Of a DNA stretch of 64,000 nucleotides, positions 17,921-28,777 are shown in pieces. Origin of the DNA: an uncultured Cytophagaceae bacterium (GTDB taxonomy: Bacteria; Bacteroidota; Bacteroidia; Cytophagales; Spirosomataceae). The stretch covers positions 1 through 64,000 of the forward strand of contig CAIUGL010000184.1 in the NCBI GenBank assembly GCA_903898715.1, given 5' to 3'. Below the pieces are notes generated by a model. It searched no databases, was not told where the DNA came from, and saw only the letters and a program-made list of their open reading frames with translations. Position 1 is the stretch's first letter. Every line of letters begins with the position of its first letter. Made by a program: the position numbers and the translations under genes.

Positions 17921-18424
17921 ATGACTCAAAAAAATAGGTTCATTTTCAGTGCATTATGCTTGTTGGCCTCCTTCATGGGCAACGCGCAAATTCAAAAAGG
18001 CTTAGGTACGTTTTACCACAGTAGACATTGGGGTGGACGTACGTACTCAGGAGAAAAATACCATCCTTACGTTTATACAGCTGCACATAAATCCTATCCG
18101 ATGGGATCTTGGGTAGAAGTAACTTTAGTTAAAACAGGTAAAAAAGTATTTGTGCGTGTGAATGACCGCGGTCCATTTTTTCGGGGTGGCGTGATCGATG
18201 TGTCCAAAAGTGCCGCACAAGATTTAGGTTTAGTCCCATTCGGTATTTCCAAAGTGGAAGTCCGACTTCTTTCCCCGGAAGAAATTACGGATTCATTGAA
18301 GATTTCGTGGGCTCAACGCGATTCTGTGGGCCGAGCGGAACACCCAATCGCTCCCAAAAAGAAGAAGAAAAAGTCTACGCGCAAAAAGAGCAAAAAGCGC
18401 AAAAAGAAAAAAGTGCGTCGTTAA
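17921..18424 (+). CDS. RlpA-like protein with double-psi beta-barrel and basic tail
   Basis: A 167-residue exported protein. A signal peptide ends near SFMGNAQ (residue 23). The DPBB domain (about 27-125) has GLGTFYHSRHWGGRTYSG, the AAHKSYPMGSWVEV segment and VNDRGPF with the conserved Asp, as in RlpA lytic transglycosylases that act on glycan strands lacking stem peptides. There is no SPOR domain. Instead the last 25 residues are almost all Lys and Arg (KKKKKKSTRKKSKKRKKKK), which could bind anionic envelope polymers. It ends in a TTAA stop shared with the convergent OmpA-type gene. Confidence 0.82.
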   Translation: MTQKNRFIFSALCLLASFMGNAQIQKGLGTFYHSRHWGGRTYSGEKYHPYVYTAAHKSYPMGSWVEVTLVKTGKKVFVRVNDRGPFFRGGVIDVSKSAAQDLGLVPFGISKVEVRLLSPEEITDSLKISWAQRDSVGRAEHPIAPKKKKKKSTRKKSKKRKKKKVRR

Positions 18425-19617
18425 TTTGAACGTAACCGTATTTCGATGCGGCGGTTCATTTGTCGGTTAAGTTTTTCCTTCGGAACCGTATTTCCCATTC
18501 CTTGCGTGAAGATTCGATCAGCCGCAATTCCTAGTTTGATCAAATGCATTTTTACGGCTAATGCGCGTTTTTCAGATAAAATTTGATTACTGGATGCATT
18601 TCCGATATCATCAGTATGTCCTTGTATATCAATAGACTGTGATGGATTTTCTTGTAAGTAGCTTGCTAATTTGGCTAAACATTCAGGAATGGGTTCCGTT
18701 AAATTCCACGCATTATTTGCAAACTGAATGGCTTCGAAGCTAAGTGAATCAAATTGAATTCGTTTAACCGGTGCTTTCAGCCAAACATCAGGTGAGATAT
18801 AAATACGCGCTATATCTAATTCGCGTTCAGGTTCGGTCGATTTACGTGAAATGAAATACGAATCGACTTCTGGTCCCATGGAAATACCTGCATCATGGCT
18901 AGAGGTGTTCAATATATGTAAAGACTCCGGGCTTTCTACGGCAATGATGGGATATCGAGTTTGGTAATAGTCAAGCCCTCCTTTTCCGCCTGATTTACTA
19001 CTCGAAAATAGGAAGATAGATTTGTTGGCTAATATATAGGGACCTTGTTCATCTTCATTCGAGTTAATCAGGTTACCGACATTTTTAGGGGTATTCCAGC
19101 GTCCTTGATCATCTTTTTCGCTAACCCAAATATCTCGTTTTCCATATCCGCCGAGTCGATCCGATGAAAAGTACAGTTGTTTTCCATCCAAACTAATATG
19201 CGGCTGGCCTTCCCACTCATGTGAATTAATTAAGAAGCCTAAATTTTTCGGCTTTGTCCAAGAATCCCCCATCCGCTGGCTTTCATATAAATCACATCCC
19301 CCAAAGCTGTTTGGGTATTCGCAGGCAGAAAAGTATAGCGTTTTTCCATCCTTCGTCAGGCTAGGAGTTCCTTCATTATTCTCTCGATTAATCGCATCGA
19401 TGGGTGCAGGCGCATCAAAATGCCGTCCATTCCAATGCGCGACAAAAAGCTCTTCATCCGATTTAGCTGCTTTGCGGATCGTCAGGTAGAGATTTTGGCT
19501 GGCTGCATTAAAATGTGGAAAGTATTGTGTACGCTGTAAATTTAGTTCCGTAATAGGCGAGGGGAGGCTATCCAGCGGCATGCAAAAAGCGACAAATGGG
19601 ATGAGCCAGGCCAACAT
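18421..19617 (-). CDS. OmpA family protein with PD40-type beta-propeller repeats
   Basis: A 398-residue envelope protein. A hydrophobic N-terminus is followed by TolB/PD40-like repeats (for example GTPSLTKDGKTLYFSAC and GQPHISLDGKQLYFSSDR, about 80-200) and a C-terminal OmpA peptidoglycan-binding domain (about 290-398) with IDIQGHTDDIGN and NRQMNRRIEIRL. This combination is common in Bacteroidota, often as lipoproteins or gliding/secretion accessories. No clear lipobox is visible. It lies 3 bases behind queE, so the two are likely co-transcribed although functionally unrelated. Confidence 0.85.
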   Translation of the reverse strand: MLAWLIPFVAFCMPLDSLPSPITELNLQRTQYFPHFNAASQNLYLTIRKAAKSDEELFVAHWNGRHFDAPAPIDAINRENNEGTPSLTKDGKTLYFSACEYPNSFGGCDLYESQRMGDSWTKPKNLGFLINSHEWEGQPHISLDGKQLYFSSDRLGGYGKRDIWVSEKDDQGRWNTPKNVGNLINSNEDEQGPYILANKSIFLFSSSKSGGKGGLDYYQTRYPIIAVESPESLHILNTSSHDAGISMGPEVDSYFISRKSTEPERELDIARIYISPDVWLKAPVKRIQFDSLSFEAIQFANNAWNLTEPIPECLAKLASYLQENPSQSIDIQGHTDDIGNASSNQILSEKRALAVKMHLIKLGIAADRIFTQGMGNTVPKEKLNRQMNRRIEIRLRSN

Positions 19618-23337: not shown

Positions 23338-24390
23338 ATGTCTACACCGCGCGAAGAAGGTTTTTATTTTCCAGCTGAATGGCATCCGCATGTAGCTACT
23401 TGGATTACATTTCCGCATAATGATCATTCCTGGCAAGGGGATAAATTAGCTGCGATGTATCCGGAGTATTTTGCGCTCATTCGGATAATTTCTCAAGGAG
23501 AATTAGTGAATATCCAAGTGAATGATGCGGCTTTGGCTACATTTATTCAAAGTCAATTACCCGTATTTGGAATTGATCCTCAGCAGATTCGATTACATAT
23601 TCGTCCCACAAATGATGCCTGGTGCCGCGATCATGGACCCGCATTTTTGGTCCATCAGTCCAGCGATGCACGCTTAATTGTCGATTGGGAATACAATGCC
23701 TGGGGTGGGAAATATCCGCCTTTTGGCGATGATAATGCTTCGCCGAAAGCTATTGCGCAAACTGTAGGATTACGTTCCGTTAGCCCTGGTATTATTATGG
23801 AAGGTGGTTCAGTTGATTTTAATGGGGCAGGAACCGTATTGACTTCACGGTCATGTTTACTGAATCCAAACCGTAATCCGCATTTGAGTCAAGCGGAAAT
23901 TGAACAATATCTTTGTGATTATTATGGGGTCCAACAAGTCTTATGGGTTTCGGATGGAATTGTAGGGGATGATACGGATGGGCACATTGACGATACGGTT
24001 CGTTTTGTTAATTCGAATACCGTGATTGCGATGGTGGAACCCCAGGTGGACGATGAAAACCATGCCGTTTTGGCTCAAAACCTAGCTGAATTGAAGGAAA
24101 TGCGTTTGTTGAACGGGGAGCCGCTGAATATAATTGAACTACCAATGCCGGATCCAGTGGTCATCGATGATTTTCGGGCGCCGGGTTCGTATGCCAATTT
24201 CTATATTTGCAATGCAGGGGTGATTGTGCCTACGTTTGATTGTCCCCAAGATGCTTTTGCCTTGGCGACATTGACACAATTATTTCCAGATCGTCCCGTT
24301 ATAGGTCTTTCAGCTAAGCAAATTATTTGGGGGCAAGGAAGTTTTCATTGCCTAACCCAGCAAGAACCTCAAGCGAACGCATGCGTGTAA
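23338..24390 (+). CDS. aguA: Agmatine deiminase
   Basis: Hydrolyses agmatine to N-carbamoylputrescine and ammonia. The 350-residue guanidine-group-modifying enzyme has NDAWCRDHGPAFLV (about 89-102), EGGSVDFNG, DDTDGHIDDTVRF and the catalytic Cys near residue 338 in GSFHCLTQQEP. Together with the AguB-type amidase at 2251-3117 it completes agmatine to putrescine, although the two genes are far apart. Its last 10 bases overlap the start of the following lipoprotein gene. Confidence 0.94.
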   Translation: MSTPREEGFYFPAEWHPHVATWITFPHNDHSWQGDKLAAMYPEYFALIRIISQGELVNIQVNDAALATFIQSQLPVFGIDPQQIRLHIRPTNDAWCRDHGPAFLVHQSSDARLIVDWEYNAWGGKYPPFGDDNASPKAIAQTVGLRSVSPGIIMEGGSVDFNGAGTVLTSRSCLLNPNRNPHLSQAEIEQYLCDYYGVQQVLWVSDGIVGDDTDGHIDDTVRFVNSNTVIAMVEPQVDDENHAVLAQNLAELKEMRLLNGEPLNIIELPMPDPVVIDDFRAPGSYANFYICNAGVIVPTFDCPQDAFALATLTQLFPDRPVIGLSAKQIIWGQGSFHCLTQQEPQANACV

Positions 24391-25085
24391 TTTTAGTATT
24401 TTTATCGGTGGCCATCGTTTGGTCTTGTGCCAAAACTTCGTCAACGGTACCTCAAGTAGCTGAGCAAAAGGTCGCGGTAAAGCCAGCCAACAAAGATGTG
24501 CAGCTTCAAATGAAGACCATCACGGCGTATGATTTGCAAGAAAATGTCACGTTGCGAGATGAAATACTGGTTCAAGTTGCGGTAGTTCGGATTGTTGGTG
24601 ATGCTGTTTATCCTGAAAGTTCTCGTTTTGTATATGTAGGTTCTGTGGCGCAGGGCCAACAAATTTCCTTGGATTCCATTCGGTTGAAGCCCGTAACGAT
24701 TGCTCCGGGGGAGCGCGTGGGAGTGCAAGTTTATTTGTGGGAATTAGATGATTATGCGCAAGATCAAGCATTTATTTATCAGTTAAATCAGGTGAGTGGT
24801 TTGGTTCAAATCCCGATGACCTTGATGGAGTGGAGCAGTTTCTCGAATCCATTGAGCTGGTTTATTTGGGGAGCGCGCCTTGGTTCTGTCGGATTAGATT
24901 GGTGGGCCAAACGGGATGGAAAGGATTTATTGGGGGTTTCAGAGGTGCAATGGGATTATGCGGATATGTCAAAAGGAAAATCTGTTCGCTTTAAGCGAGG
25001 CACTTGGAAAGGTGGTAAGAAGGGACTTGGGGCATATCAATATGGATTTTCATACGAGGTTCGTGTGAATGATTCACCCCGTTAG
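24381..25085 (+). CDS. Putative lipoprotein of unknown function
   Basis: A 234-residue protein starting at ATG 24381 inside the end of aguA; a longer frame from 24327 is rejected because it would overlap aguA by 64 bases and bury the signal peptide. The N-terminus MRVILVFLSVAIVWSCAK has a lipobox-like WSC (Cys 16). The rest is a predicted beta-rich domain with short hydrophobic stretches, including NPLSWFIWGARLG (about 155-170). I know no family. It is the last gene of the operon lipoprotein-nadE-coaX-aguA, and its conserved position may be only incidental. Confidence 0.7.
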   Translation: MRVILVFLSVAIVWSCAKTSSTVPQVAEQKVAVKPANKDVQLQMKTITAYDLQENVTLRDEILVQVAVVRIVGDAVYPESSRFVYVGSVAQGQQISLDSIRLKPVTIAPGERVGVQVYLWELDDYAQDQAFIYQLNQVSGLVQIPMTLMEWSSFSNPLSWFIWGARLGSVGLDWWAKRDGKDLLGVSEVQWDYADMSKGKSVRFKRGTWKGGKKGLGAYQYGFSYEVRVNDSPR

Positions 25086-25117: not shown

Positions 25118-25157
25118 TAGCCTTGAAAAATAATTTTCAAGTGGAGTGGAATTAAAT

Positions 25158-27401
25158 ATGTTTAGAGGTATCATCTTTTGTTTGTTGGTTTCTATGTCTG
25201 CGGTTGCGCAGGTCGAATTCCCCATTACGTTGGGTTCGAAGAAGATCGCTTCAAAGGATTTCGTGAATGATTACCGGAAGTTGTTAGAAAGCGATAGTAT
25301 CAAAGCTGATAACAAACAGAAATTCTTGTCGGACTACATCGATTATCAACTCAAGTTGATGGCTGCTGAAGAGGCAAAAATTGCAACTTCTCCCGGGTTT
25401 CAGGATGAATATCAAAGTTTTCGTAAGGAATTAGCCAGTCCGTATTTGATTGATACGGAGAAGACGGAAACGTTAGTTCGTGAGGCCTATGCACGTTTGA
25501 AATTCGAAAAGCAGATTGCTCAGATCATGGTCAAAGTTCCTGCGAATCCTTCCGCTGCAGACACGTTATTGGCCTTTCAGAAAATAAATAACATACGTAC
25601 TAGGTTGTTGGCAGGTGAATCTTTCGATGTCTTGGCAAAGAAATATTCTGAGGATGATTTATCAGCCCCTAAAGGTGGCTCGTTAGGTTATGTGACAAGT
25701 TTACAATTACAATATGCTATTGAGAACGCAGTATATGCGTTGGATGTCAATGGTGTTTCACCGATAGTACGAACGGAAACGGGGTATCATTTGGTTAAGG
25801 TATTGGCCATTCGTCCAAATCAGGGGAAGATCAGATTAGCCCATATTTTAGTATCTGTGCCTGTGAATGCAGCTACAAATTTGCAAGTGGATGCAAAGAA
25901 TCGAATTGATCAGGTACAGAAATATTTAGAGAAGGGTGATGATTCATTTGAATTGATTTGTAAAAATTACTCGGAGGATCCGTATTCCAAGGGTCGTGGA
26001 GGTGAATTACGCCGCTGGTATTATTCGTCGGACTTGAGTGAAGAATTGCAGAGTCAATTATTTTCGATCCAACGATTAGGTGATTTTACGGCACCAATTC
26101 GAACAAATTTAGGTTGGCAAATTTTCAAGTTATTAGACAAGAAACCGTTGTTGAGTTATGAGGAGATGGCGGAATACATTCGTCAAAAAGTCATGACTGA
26201 CCCAGAGCGTGTTGCGATGATTCGTCGGTCCTTCATGACGCGTGTACGTGCTGAAAACCAGGTTGTGATTGTTGAGGCAGCGAAAAAGATAGCCTTGGAG
26301 CGTTTTGCACAGGACCGGGTAGGGGATGAATATTATTTAAAAATGCCTTTGGTGCAGATTGGGCAAAAGAGCTGGACGGTTCAAGATTTTTATACGTTTA
26401 TTATAGCCCAACAAAAACGTAAGTTGAAGGCCTTAGGTTATTTACCATCCGTGCCGGAGCTCGTCTATTTAGAGGAGTTTGTGGACAATCATACGATGAC
26501 GGTGGAGGAACAGCATTTGGAGACCAAATATCCCGCTTTTCAGGAACAGATGAAGGAGTTTTATGAAGGTTCGTTGTTCAGTAAAATTGTGGAGCGAGCG
26601 ATTTATGATCCTTCTTTGGATTCGTTAAATCAACAAAAATATTTCATGGCGCATGCGTCGGAATATACCTTGCCTACACGTGTACAGGCGAAGATCGTTA
26701 GCGCTGATTCACCCAAAACATTGGCTGAGGCTTTGGAATTAGTTAGTCAGGCACCTTATGTGATGAATAAGCGATTGCCTGATGTGACGTTTGGATTGGG
26801 TAAAGTGGAGATTTCGGAGGGGATGAATAAGATCCAACAAGAATTATTTTTGTTGATGGCGAAGAACCGCGATTATGTGGTGGAGATTTCTGGGCATCAA
26901 GATGCGTCTGAGGCGGATACGCTAGCAGATGCGCGTGTAAATGTCTTGGTTAAGTATTTGATGAAAAAAGGGATTGGGTCTACGCGTATTATTGAAAAGA
27001 TGGAGGGGAGTTTGAAGCCTTTATCTAAAACTGATAAGAGCAAAAATGCGCGGGTTTCTTTTCGGTTTTTCTCGCAATCGATGGAAGATGTTGTTAAGCG
27101 TTTCAATGCGGTGAAACCGATGACATTGGTGGCTGAGGAAGGTATGTATGTGAAGGGTCAACAACCTTTATTGGATTCGATGCCGTGGGAGGTGGGGAAA
27201 AAGACCATGGAATTAGATGGGCGTCAGGTGTATATTGAAATTCGTGCGATAGAACCTGAGCGTTTAAAGCGTTTTGATGAATCGCGTAGTTCGGTCATTC
27301 GTGGGTTGCAGGCGCAACTGGAACGTGATTGGTTGGCTAGTTTGAAACAAAAGTATCCTGTTCAATTAGATCAGGAAGAGTTAAATCGTTTGATGCAATA
27401 G
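25158..27401 (+). CDS. Parvulin-type peptidylprolyl isomerase with embedded OmpA-like domain
   Basis: A 747-residue periplasmic foldase. A signal peptide ends near SAVAQ. Two PpiC/parvulin domains follow (about 120-220 and 225-335), with GGSLGYV...GYHLVKVL and GGELRRW...GWQIFKLL cores. At about 535-640 there is a segment that I read as an OmpA-like peptidoglycan-binding fold: DVTFGLGKVEIS, VVEISGHQDASE, ARVNVLVKYLMKKGIGSTRI and KNARVSFRFF line up with the OmpA order. The start is ATG 25158, downstream of a -7 box; an upstream GTG at 25146 is less likely. It is co-transcribed with the SurA-like gene 5 bases later, so the two probably act on outer-membrane protein folding. Confidence 0.85.
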   Translation: MFRGIIFCLLVSMSAVAQVEFPITLGSKKIASKDFVNDYRKLLESDSIKADNKQKFLSDYIDYQLKLMAAEEAKIATSPGFQDEYQSFRKELASPYLIDTEKTETLVREAYARLKFEKQIAQIMVKVPANPSAADTLLAFQKINNIRTRLLAGESFDVLAKKYSEDDLSAPKGGSLGYVTSLQLQYAIENAVYALDVNGVSPIVRTETGYHLVKVLAIRPNQGKIRLAHILVSVPVNAATNLQVDAKNRIDQVQKYLEKGDDSFELICKNYSEDPYSKGRGGELRRWYYSSDLSEELQSQLFSIQRLGDFTAPIRTNLGWQIFKLLDKKPLLSYEEMAEYIRQKVMTDPERVAMIRRSFMTRVRAENQVVIVEAAKKIALERFAQDRVGDEYYLKMPLVQIGQKSWTVQDFYTFIIAQQKRKLKALGYLPSVPELVYLEEFVDNHTMTVEEQHLETKYPAFQEQMKEFYEGSLFSKIVERAIYDPSLDSLNQQKYFMAHASEYTLPTRVQAKIVSADSPKTLAEALELVSQAPYVMNKRLPDVTFGLGKVEISEGMNKIQQELFLLMAKNRDYVVEISGHQDASEADTLADARVNVLVKYLMKKGIGSTRIIEKMEGSLKPLSKTDKSKNARVSFRFFSQSMEDVVKRFNAVKPMTLVAEEGMYVKGQQPLLDSMPWEVGKKTMELDGRQVYIEIRAIEPERLKRFDESRSSVIRGLQAQLERDWLASLKQKYPVQLDQEELNRLMQ

Positions 27402-27406
27402 GAAAA

Positions 27407-28777
27407 ATGAAAGATATGAAATTGAGAAGTTTAGTGTTGGGTTTTGGGATGTTGCTTTTGGCGCAGGTTTCTTTTGCGCAAGAGGCTACGGAGAAGGGCC
27501 CGGTTTTGGATAAGATTATTGCCAAAGTAGACAACTATTACATTTTGCGTTCTGAAGTGGAGCAGCAATATCAACAGTATCAATCCAGCGGTCAGCCGAA
27601 TACACCGAATCGCTGCCAAATTTTGGAAGGATTGGTTGTTAATAAATTGATGTTGGCTAAAGCTGAGATTGACTCTGTGATTGTGGATGATAAGCGAATT
27701 GATGCGGAGATGAATTCACGGATGGAGCAAATGGAACAACAATATGGAACCGCAAAGAATATTGTGGAAGCGTTTGGTAAGCCCATTGTGACCTTGAAAG
27801 AAGATTTACGGACCTCATTGAAAGAGCAATTGACAGCGCGTAAGATGCAGGAGAAAATCACGGATGATGCGCGTATAACGCCGAAAGAGGTGGAGAAATT
27901 CTTTAAGCGTATCCCAACGGACTCGTTGCCTTATTTACCTTCGGAAGTTGAGATTGGCCATATCGTTCGATTAGCACAACCCAATAAATTTCAAAAGGAT
28001 GAATTGGTGAGTAAGTTATTGGATTATAAGAGGCGAGTTGAGAAAGGTGAGTCCTTTGAGGAGTTGGCTAAATTGTACTCGGAAGATTTAGGAAGTGGTA
28101 AGCGTGGTGGGGATTTAGGATTTTCTAAGCGTGGTCAAATGGTGGCTCCTTTTGAGGCCGCTGCCTTGAAGCTCAAGCCAAATCAATTGTCGGATGTGGT
28201 AGAAAGTGAGTTTGGCTTTCACTTAATTCAGTTATTAGCGGTTCGTGGGCAAGAATACCAAGCGCGTCATATATTATTGCGTCCAGATTATCAGAAATTG
28301 GACGTCACAGAACCTACGCGTTATTTAGATAGTATGCGTGTTTTGATTCAACGTGATTCAATTTCATTTGATAAAGCTGCCCGTAATGTATCCGAGGATA
28401 AGTTGACACAAGACGCAGGTGGTCTCCTCATCGACATGGCGTCACGTTCAACGCGTATGCCGTTTGATGGTACGATGGAGCCTGGTTTATATTTCTCGAT
28501 TGATTCCATGACGGTGGGTACTGTTTCCAAGCCAATTCCTTACCGTACAGAAGATGGCCGCAGTGCGATGCGAATCCTATATTTTAAGGCGAAATATCCT
28601 CCCCATTTTGCGAATTTAAACGATGATTATCAGAAAATTTCAGGCATTGCTTTGACGCAAAAGAAGAATGATATGATCGAAAAATGGTTCGTGAAAGCCA
28701 AGGACGATGTCTTTATCTTCATTGATGATGAGTATAAAGACTGTAAGGTGCTGGAAGGGAGTGTTATAGAACGTTGA
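27407..28777 (+). CDS. surA: SurA-like peptidylprolyl isomerase
   Basis: Periplasmic chaperone/isomerase of 456 residues for outer-membrane proteins. A signal peptide ends near VSFAQ; the SurA N-domain begins VLDKIIAKVDNYYILRSEVEQQ and continues through NRCQILEGLVVNKLMLAKAE. Two parvulin domains follow (about 180-280, with GSGKRGGDLGFSKRGQM and FGFHLIQLL, and about 285-385, more divergent, YQARHILLRP). The C-terminus ends with a short amphipathic region, as in SurA. It is the second gene after the parvulin-OmpA fusion. Its TGA stop is already part of the first heptamer of a downstream repeat array. Confidence 0.9.
   Translation: MKDMKLRSLVLGFGMLLLAQVSFAQEATEKGPVLDKIIAKVDNYYILRSEVEQQYQQYQSSGQPNTPNRCQILEGLVVNKLMLAKAEIDSVIVDDKRIDAEMNSRMEQMEQQYGTAKNIVEAFGKPIVTLKEDLRTSLKEQLTARKMQEKITDDARITPKEVEKFFKRIPTDSLPYLPSEVEIGHIVRLAQPNKFQKDELVSKLLDYKRRVEKGESFEELAKLYSEDLGSGKRGGDLGFSKRGQMVAPFEAAALKLKPNQLSDVVESEFGFHLIQLLAVRGQEYQARHILLRPDYQKLDVTEPTRYLDSMRVLIQRDSISFDKAARNVSEDKLTQDAGGLLIDMASRSTRMPFDGTMEPGLYFSIDSMTVGTVSKPIPYRTEDGRSAMRILYFKAKYPPHFANLNDDYQKISGIALTQKKNDMIEKWFVKAKDDVFIFIDDEYKDCKVLEGSVIER

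Follow-up and report, generated by a model that had tools for sequence, protein, structure and literature searches.

SurA, a periplasmic chaperone of E. coli type, has a pair of parvulin domains and is generally regarded as unattached within the periplasm, and PrsA foldases are lipoproteins with one parvulin domain. OmpA-type domains are known from other carriers, which in Pal and OmpA are a lipoprotein and a barrel. In Bacteroidota, the type IX protein PorE bears an OmpA domain at the C-terminus of a multi-domain periplasmic scaffold. Its structure (6top) was solved with a peptidoglycan fragment, the diaminopimelate being held by the side chains of Asp576, Asn584 and Arg591 (both according to excerpts of PMC7192894). 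The SurA of B. thetaiotaomicron, Bt3848, co-purifies with BamA, as given in an excerpt of PMC12578637. Fibrobacter OmpA proteins and parvulins occupy separate table rows in the excerpted part of PMC6851124, and a limited literature search, which covered sources in part, returned no description of an OmpA domain nested in a parvulin domain. Both parts are well known; their nested arrangement, which we describe here, appears to be the new part.

The window analysed was a stretch of 64,000 nucleotides from an uncultured Cytophagaceae bacterium (contig CAIUGL010000184.1). The forward-strand ORF at 25158-27401 (start ATG at 25158, stop at 27401, with an in-frame GTG ahead of it at 25146) encodes a 747 aa protein. 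Its product is a SurA/PrsA-like periplasmic chaperone with three parvulin domains, two of them recognisable and one degenerate. A Pfam scan of the whole protein matched PF00639 in two stretches (E 5.4e-38). The protein began with what by eye, rather than by a cleavage-prediction tool, was a type I signal peptide, MFRGIIFCLLVSMSAVAQ (25158..25211), and no lipobox was seen by eye. This was followed by a chaperone-like region that was mostly helical in the model (residues 19-113, 25212..25496), which had no Pfam match to SurA_N at E<=1. Parvulin domain 1 (residues ~116-218, 25503..25811) was delimited from the best PF00639 stretch (123-215), a fold match to 3gpk (Z 15.8) and a residue table. Parvulin domain 2 (residues ~223-331, 25824..26150) was delimited from the second PF00639 stretch, the match to SurA, the model and the residue table. 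The third domain was in two pieces, a first half with strand 1 and helix 1 (residues ~504-529, 26667..26744) and a second half with helix 2 and strands 2-4 (residues ~642-702, 27081..27263), separated by the OmpA-like insert (residues ~535-639, 26760..27074). The first half was placed by the model and by alignment with homologues lacking the insert, and the second by the model and by hhalign to the third domain of those homologues. A long helix, a short strand and a helix closed the model (residues ~703-747, 27264..27398). Residue numbers refer to the precursor and equal the model (mature) numbering plus 18.

SurA was the nearest match of the chaperone. The E. coli-type structure 1m5y was its top sequence match, over residues 116-331, and also ranked first in Foldseek, in a loose superposition (rmsd about 26 A) of flexible domains. 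Unlike SurA, the chaperone lacked a SurA_N match, had three parvulin domains instead of two, carried the OmpA insert and reached 747 aa. It scored 69.1 bits against the NCBIfam SurA model, below the cut-off of 394 bits, and was not assigned to SurA. Its parvulin domains also scored well against PrsA foldases, with 6vj6 among the fold matches. Unlike PrsA, however, it had no lipobox by eye, and its 96.2 bits fell far below the NCBIfam cut-off of 343 bits, so that it was not placed in PrsA either. Fold searches with the chaperone model returned SurA, PrsA, Pin1 and OmpA/Pal chains.

The initial annotation had pointed to an embedded OmpA-like segment at about residues 535-640. The motifs that it had named were all present: DVTFGLGKVEIS (542-553), ISGHQD (577-582), KYLMKKGIGSTRI (599-611) and KNARVSF (629-635). 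Against the whole protein, PF00691 matched residues 560-629 with E 1.8e-5 and 25.4 bits, just below the cut-off of 27.2. This shortfall would favour a chance likeness within a divergent parvulin region. However, the excised segment (530-645) scored above the same cut-off (29.2 bits, E 1.2e-6), and at E<=0.01 PF00691 matched 55 of the 65 inserts that were excised, including that of the window. In a six-frame search of its own genome the insert again scored 29.2 bits, the weakest of five OmpA domains. A profile of the 65 inserts retrieved OmpA domains from the PDB, with 6top (PorE) at the top (E 3.2e-18).

The predicted structure agreed with these matches. The AlphaFold2 model, for which the input was an alignment of 62 OmpA-bearing sequences with the window protein first, had a mean pLDDT of 93.0 and a pTM of 0.68, and its strands and helices followed the OmpA order with high confidence. 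Model residues 521-620 superposed on Pal of A. baumannii (4g4w) with Z 16.0 and 1.6 A over 100 residues. The corresponding Z scores were 15.1 for 1oap and 14.7 for 3td5, the A. baumannii OmpA-like domain with a diaminopimelate-containing peptide; all were obtained by re-examining Foldseek's own matches. The outcome that was to have counted against the segment, a structure prediction with no OmpA fold, did not arise. The segment was also missing as one block from relatives, and a chance likeness, to which we give next to no probability, was rejected on profile, fold and insertion pattern together. The insert is a true OmpA domain by sequence and fold. Its fold is the one found at the C-terminus of Pal and OmpA, placed here in a soluble chaperone and with an altered pocket.

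The insert lay between model helices 501-511 and 624-634 (mature numbering), the first of which was preceded by a model strand at 490-498. In the homologue L079, which has no insert (model mean pLDDT 93.8), the same region ran strand, helix, helix, three strands, the order of a parvulin. The third domain of the form without the insert aligned with parvulins 1 and 2 of that form at hhalign probabilities of 92.5 and 92.6% (E about 5e-7), against 0.2-0.3% for three unrelated control segments of the protein. The OmpA-bearing third domain, with the insert removed, matched the third domain of the shorter form at 99.8% (E 7.5e-29). It gave no direct alignment to parvulins 1 and 2 (hhalign 0.2-0.7%), and its link to the parvulins therefore passes through the shorter form. 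The best stretch of Pfam Rotamase_2 in another such homologue, L060, was also the third domain (479-591). Domain 3 is, on the predicted order of its secondary structure, the hhalign results and the Rotamase_2 match, a putative degenerate parvulin. Since the model, L079, hhalign and Rotamase_2 all bear on this, the OmpA domain can be described as nested in a degenerate parvulin domain. It sits in a surface loop of domain 3, between its first two helices. The word "embedded" in the initial annotation thus understated the case, as homologues without the insert place the segment inside a third parvulin-like domain. A gene fusion at the protein end was rejected, because domain 3 encloses the insert and each half of this domain aligns to relatives without an insert. 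One 541 aa homologue in another family (L183, genome G703, family f102) lacked the whole third parvulin domain, which is therefore dispensable in some lineages.

Matches to the protein were found in 150/150 genomes of the family sample, 383/390 of the order sample, 157/159 of the class sample and 147/148 of the phylum sample, but weak matches can be SurA and these counts are not counts of the nested architecture. The architecture was scored from the stretch between flanking alignment columns in 189 loci. These were what was left of 203 after setting aside the short L165 and 13 fragments, duplicates or SurA-type hits, including L004 and L012, both copies of one close relative. Near-copies were retained in the 189, namely L001, which is the window's locus, its 99% copy L008 and one record present twice (L006 and L017). 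The stretch measured 114-133 aa in 87 loci and 15-21 aa in 94, two main groups with no length between 77 and 113 aa. It was 68-76 aa in five of the other eight, 38 and 44 aa in one each, and 6 aa in L183. The five intermediate inserts, from families f33 and f46 (L124, L125, L188, L190 and L191), were lysine-rich and occupied the same loop, as did the inserts of 38-44 aa in two other families (L133 and L194).

The form with an insert of OmpA length was present in 14 of the 18 families of the order from which a homologue was extracted (f1, f2, f4, f5, f7, f9, f10, f12, f14, f15, f17, f18, f20 and f22). The shorter form occurred in the other four, f3, f11, f16 and f19, as well as in the other families extracted, and the insert is therefore dispensable to the basic task of the family. 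In genomes of f6, f8, f13 and f21 all matches were weak and of SurA type. Two families outside the order also had the OmpA-length form: f76, which belongs to a different order, and f37, from a different class. In most relatives elsewhere in the phylum the stretch was no longer than 15-21 aa. Among the matches listed for the other orders of the class sample, only that of G631 (f76) extended through the insert. The two loci of this genome, L164 and L165, are probably parts of a single gene that contig ends interrupt.

The history of the insert was followed in two trees built without the insert columns, one with FastTree and one more careful. The proteins of f37 were placed among insert-less proteins of other classes in both trees, with support in the careful tree of 98/90 for a group of four rows and 100/99 for a group of six. 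This position indicates an independent gain of an OmpA-like insert in f37. The f37 inserts occupied the same site and scored 34.8 bits against PF00691 in L129 and 21.0 bits, below the cut-off, in L187. For the OmpA-bearing rows other than those of f37, parsimony required five label changes in both trees. Of these, the starred branches by themselves forced four with FastTree but just one in the careful tree. The five changes led us to reject one origin with no subsequent loss. One gain followed by several losses is the simple reading of the trees, short of proof, and the insert was likely lost in f3, f11, f16 and f19. L164 (f76) took no settled position in the careful tree. From the sequence comparison, the loop in domain 3 appears to be an insertion hot spot.

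The initial annotation had described the second conserved Asp/Arg pair as partly replaced. This was not what the profile alignment to 6top gave: Asp582 (26901-26903) and Arg593 (26934-26936) were both kept, and a loop of four residues was missing instead, including those equivalent to Tyr583 and Asn584 of PorE. Two of the three side chains that contact peptidoglycan in PorE were thus retained, and the third was gone with its loop. Asn and loop being deleted, we class the insert as an OmpA fold and not as a proven peptidoglycan binder. Like PorE, the chaperone combines an OmpA domain with a multi-domain periplasmic scaffold in Bacteroidota; in contrast to PorE, its OmpA domain lies inside a parvulin and lacks the Asn loop. 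In 62 Cytophagales inserts, thinned to <85% identity, the Arg was present in 61, a Glu three positions after the Asp in 59 and the Asp itself in 39. The spacing from Asp to Arg was 11 in 50 of them, 9-12 in five others and 14-16 in seven, compared with 15 in PorE. Glu585 (26910-26912) and Arg593 were the only columns conserved at >=90% in the 65 inserts. Elsewhere in this genome, the remaining four OmpA domains had loops with Asp, Asn and Arg, spaced by 15 in three and by more in one, which makes the insert of the chaperone the odd one out. One further protein in the window, a PD40 and OmpA protein on the reverse strand (18421-19617), contained the window's second OmpA domain, with a classical loop. 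The insert of L164, in another order, had the whole classical motif and scored 75.3 bits against PF00691.

The pocket has thus been altered, yet Arg593 is under strong constraint. Glu585 may stand in for the Asn and hold the amino group, or it might shut the pocket by pairing with Arg593, or both residues may serve the fold. We suggest that Asp582 and Arg593 would still let the insert contact the diaminopimelate stem of peptidoglycan, with Glu585 perhaps replacing the deleted Asn. The insert would thereby hold a chaperone that is not lipidated close to the wall, beneath the outer membrane. The insert was the sole anchor-like feature in a chaperone with no visible lipid anchor, and a tether to the cell wall by this putative peptidoglycan-binding domain is plausible. 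Several points speak against it, as the pocket loop was deleted, the Asp was lost in 23/62 inserts and Arg593 may serve the fold alone. These losses would be expected if the insert, still a true OmpA fold, no longer bound peptidoglycan and instead served as a module for structure or protein docking: it might, for instance, dock to BAM or to components of type IX, or make the client-binding cradle wider. The absence of the insert from four families of the order and the loss of the GHxD motif in all 12 extracted members of f2, f4, f10 and f18 point the same way. However, a near-invariant Arg593 accompanied by Glu585 fits a kept pocket better, even if the Arg may serve the fold, and we regard such a module as a real but rather doubtful alternative to wall contact.

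The initial annotation had also called the protein an isomerase. The conserved His pair of the parvulin active site, whose positions we name after those of Pin1, was incomplete in both recognisable domains, each of which had one His of the two. In domain 1 the first His was replaced by Gln122 and His211 was kept, while in domain 2 the first, His229, was kept and the last was replaced by Gln321. Position 321 was Gln in all 20 rows of the window's genus, as well as in the single row from g30, and His in 28/28 other rows of the family, 38/39 other OmpA-bearing rows and 99/102 rows without OmpA. Position 122 was Gln in 10/20 genus rows and 9/28 other family rows, and His in 38/39 other OmpA-bearing rows and 95/102 rows without OmpA. 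A Leu at 297 stood in place of the usual Phe in 20/20 genus rows. These rows include near-copies; the 20 of the genus include the window protein, L001, L008 and three named MAG loci placed by similarity, and 17 of them were <98% identical to each other. Given the His-to-Gln changes in both recognisable domains, the window's genus has probably lost much of its isomerase activity, and the label "isomerase" is doubtful for the window protein.

These residues bear on the original proposal as a whole, in which a normal OmpA domain fixes an active prolyl isomerase to the wall. Two PF00639 stretches and an OmpA fold speak for that proposal. It may hold outside the window's family, where 37-38 of 39 OmpA-bearing rows were intact at each His position and the OmpA-bearing form may keep isomerase activity. 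For the window protein we consider it improbable, as Gln122 and Gln321 each break the two-His pattern, the usual Phe is replaced throughout the genus and the wall pocket is altered.

A free SurA beside the gene had been proposed as well, and a SurA-like chaperone gene (27407-28777, forward strand) was indeed found directly downstream, starting five bases past the stop of the chaperone gene on the same strand. Its product matched PF00639 and PF13616 above cut-off, and SurA_N with 29.3 bits, just under the cut-off of 30.8. Among loci with at least 700 bp of downstream sequence, a SurA-like neighbour was present in 57/83 that bear the OmpA insert and in 43/97 that lack it. It was not found in the remaining 26/83 OmpA-bearing loci, although neighbours were detected by their likeness to the window's own SurA and far relatives may be missed.

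The explanation that we favour, with moderate confidence, is that a soluble SurA/PrsA-type chaperone is held at the wall by its OmpA insert and works with SurA on outer-membrane proteins. The two chaperones would most likely be made together and act together on these proteins in transit. The OmpA-type domain was inserted into the surface loop of domain 3 in the Cytophagales lineage, and in the window's genus the protein would be mainly a chaperone of the holding type, low in isomerase activity. Within this explanation the domain, its fold, its insertion site and its retention across families were computed directly. More tentatively, and with the balance of probability somewhat against it, much of one Bacteroidota order would keep an outer-membrane protein chaperone on the wall by a nested OmpA domain with a rebuilt Asp-Glu-Arg pocket whose Asn loop was deleted. 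A second lineage would then have acquired a similar insert in this loop, which would be a hot spot where such chaperones gain localisation modules. A SurA relative held at the wall would, if confirmed, provide a spatial arrangement in which clients could be passed on to the outer membrane, and removal of the insert would be a simple way to ask whether the location of the chaperone matters. The chaperone also exemplifies a domain nested inside a domain, an arrangement that by the trees arose no fewer than two times at this loop.

Two further genes lay upstream on the forward strand. The protein encoded at 24327-25085 had a lipobox-like stretch by eye and no Pfam match above cut-off. A relative of it was found upstream of 40/84 OmpA-bearing loci and 0/95 loci without the insert, a difference that may reflect distance from the window alone. 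The gene at 23338-24390 encoded a PAD_porph-family protein (E 1.1e-113), presumably of the agmatine-deiminase type.
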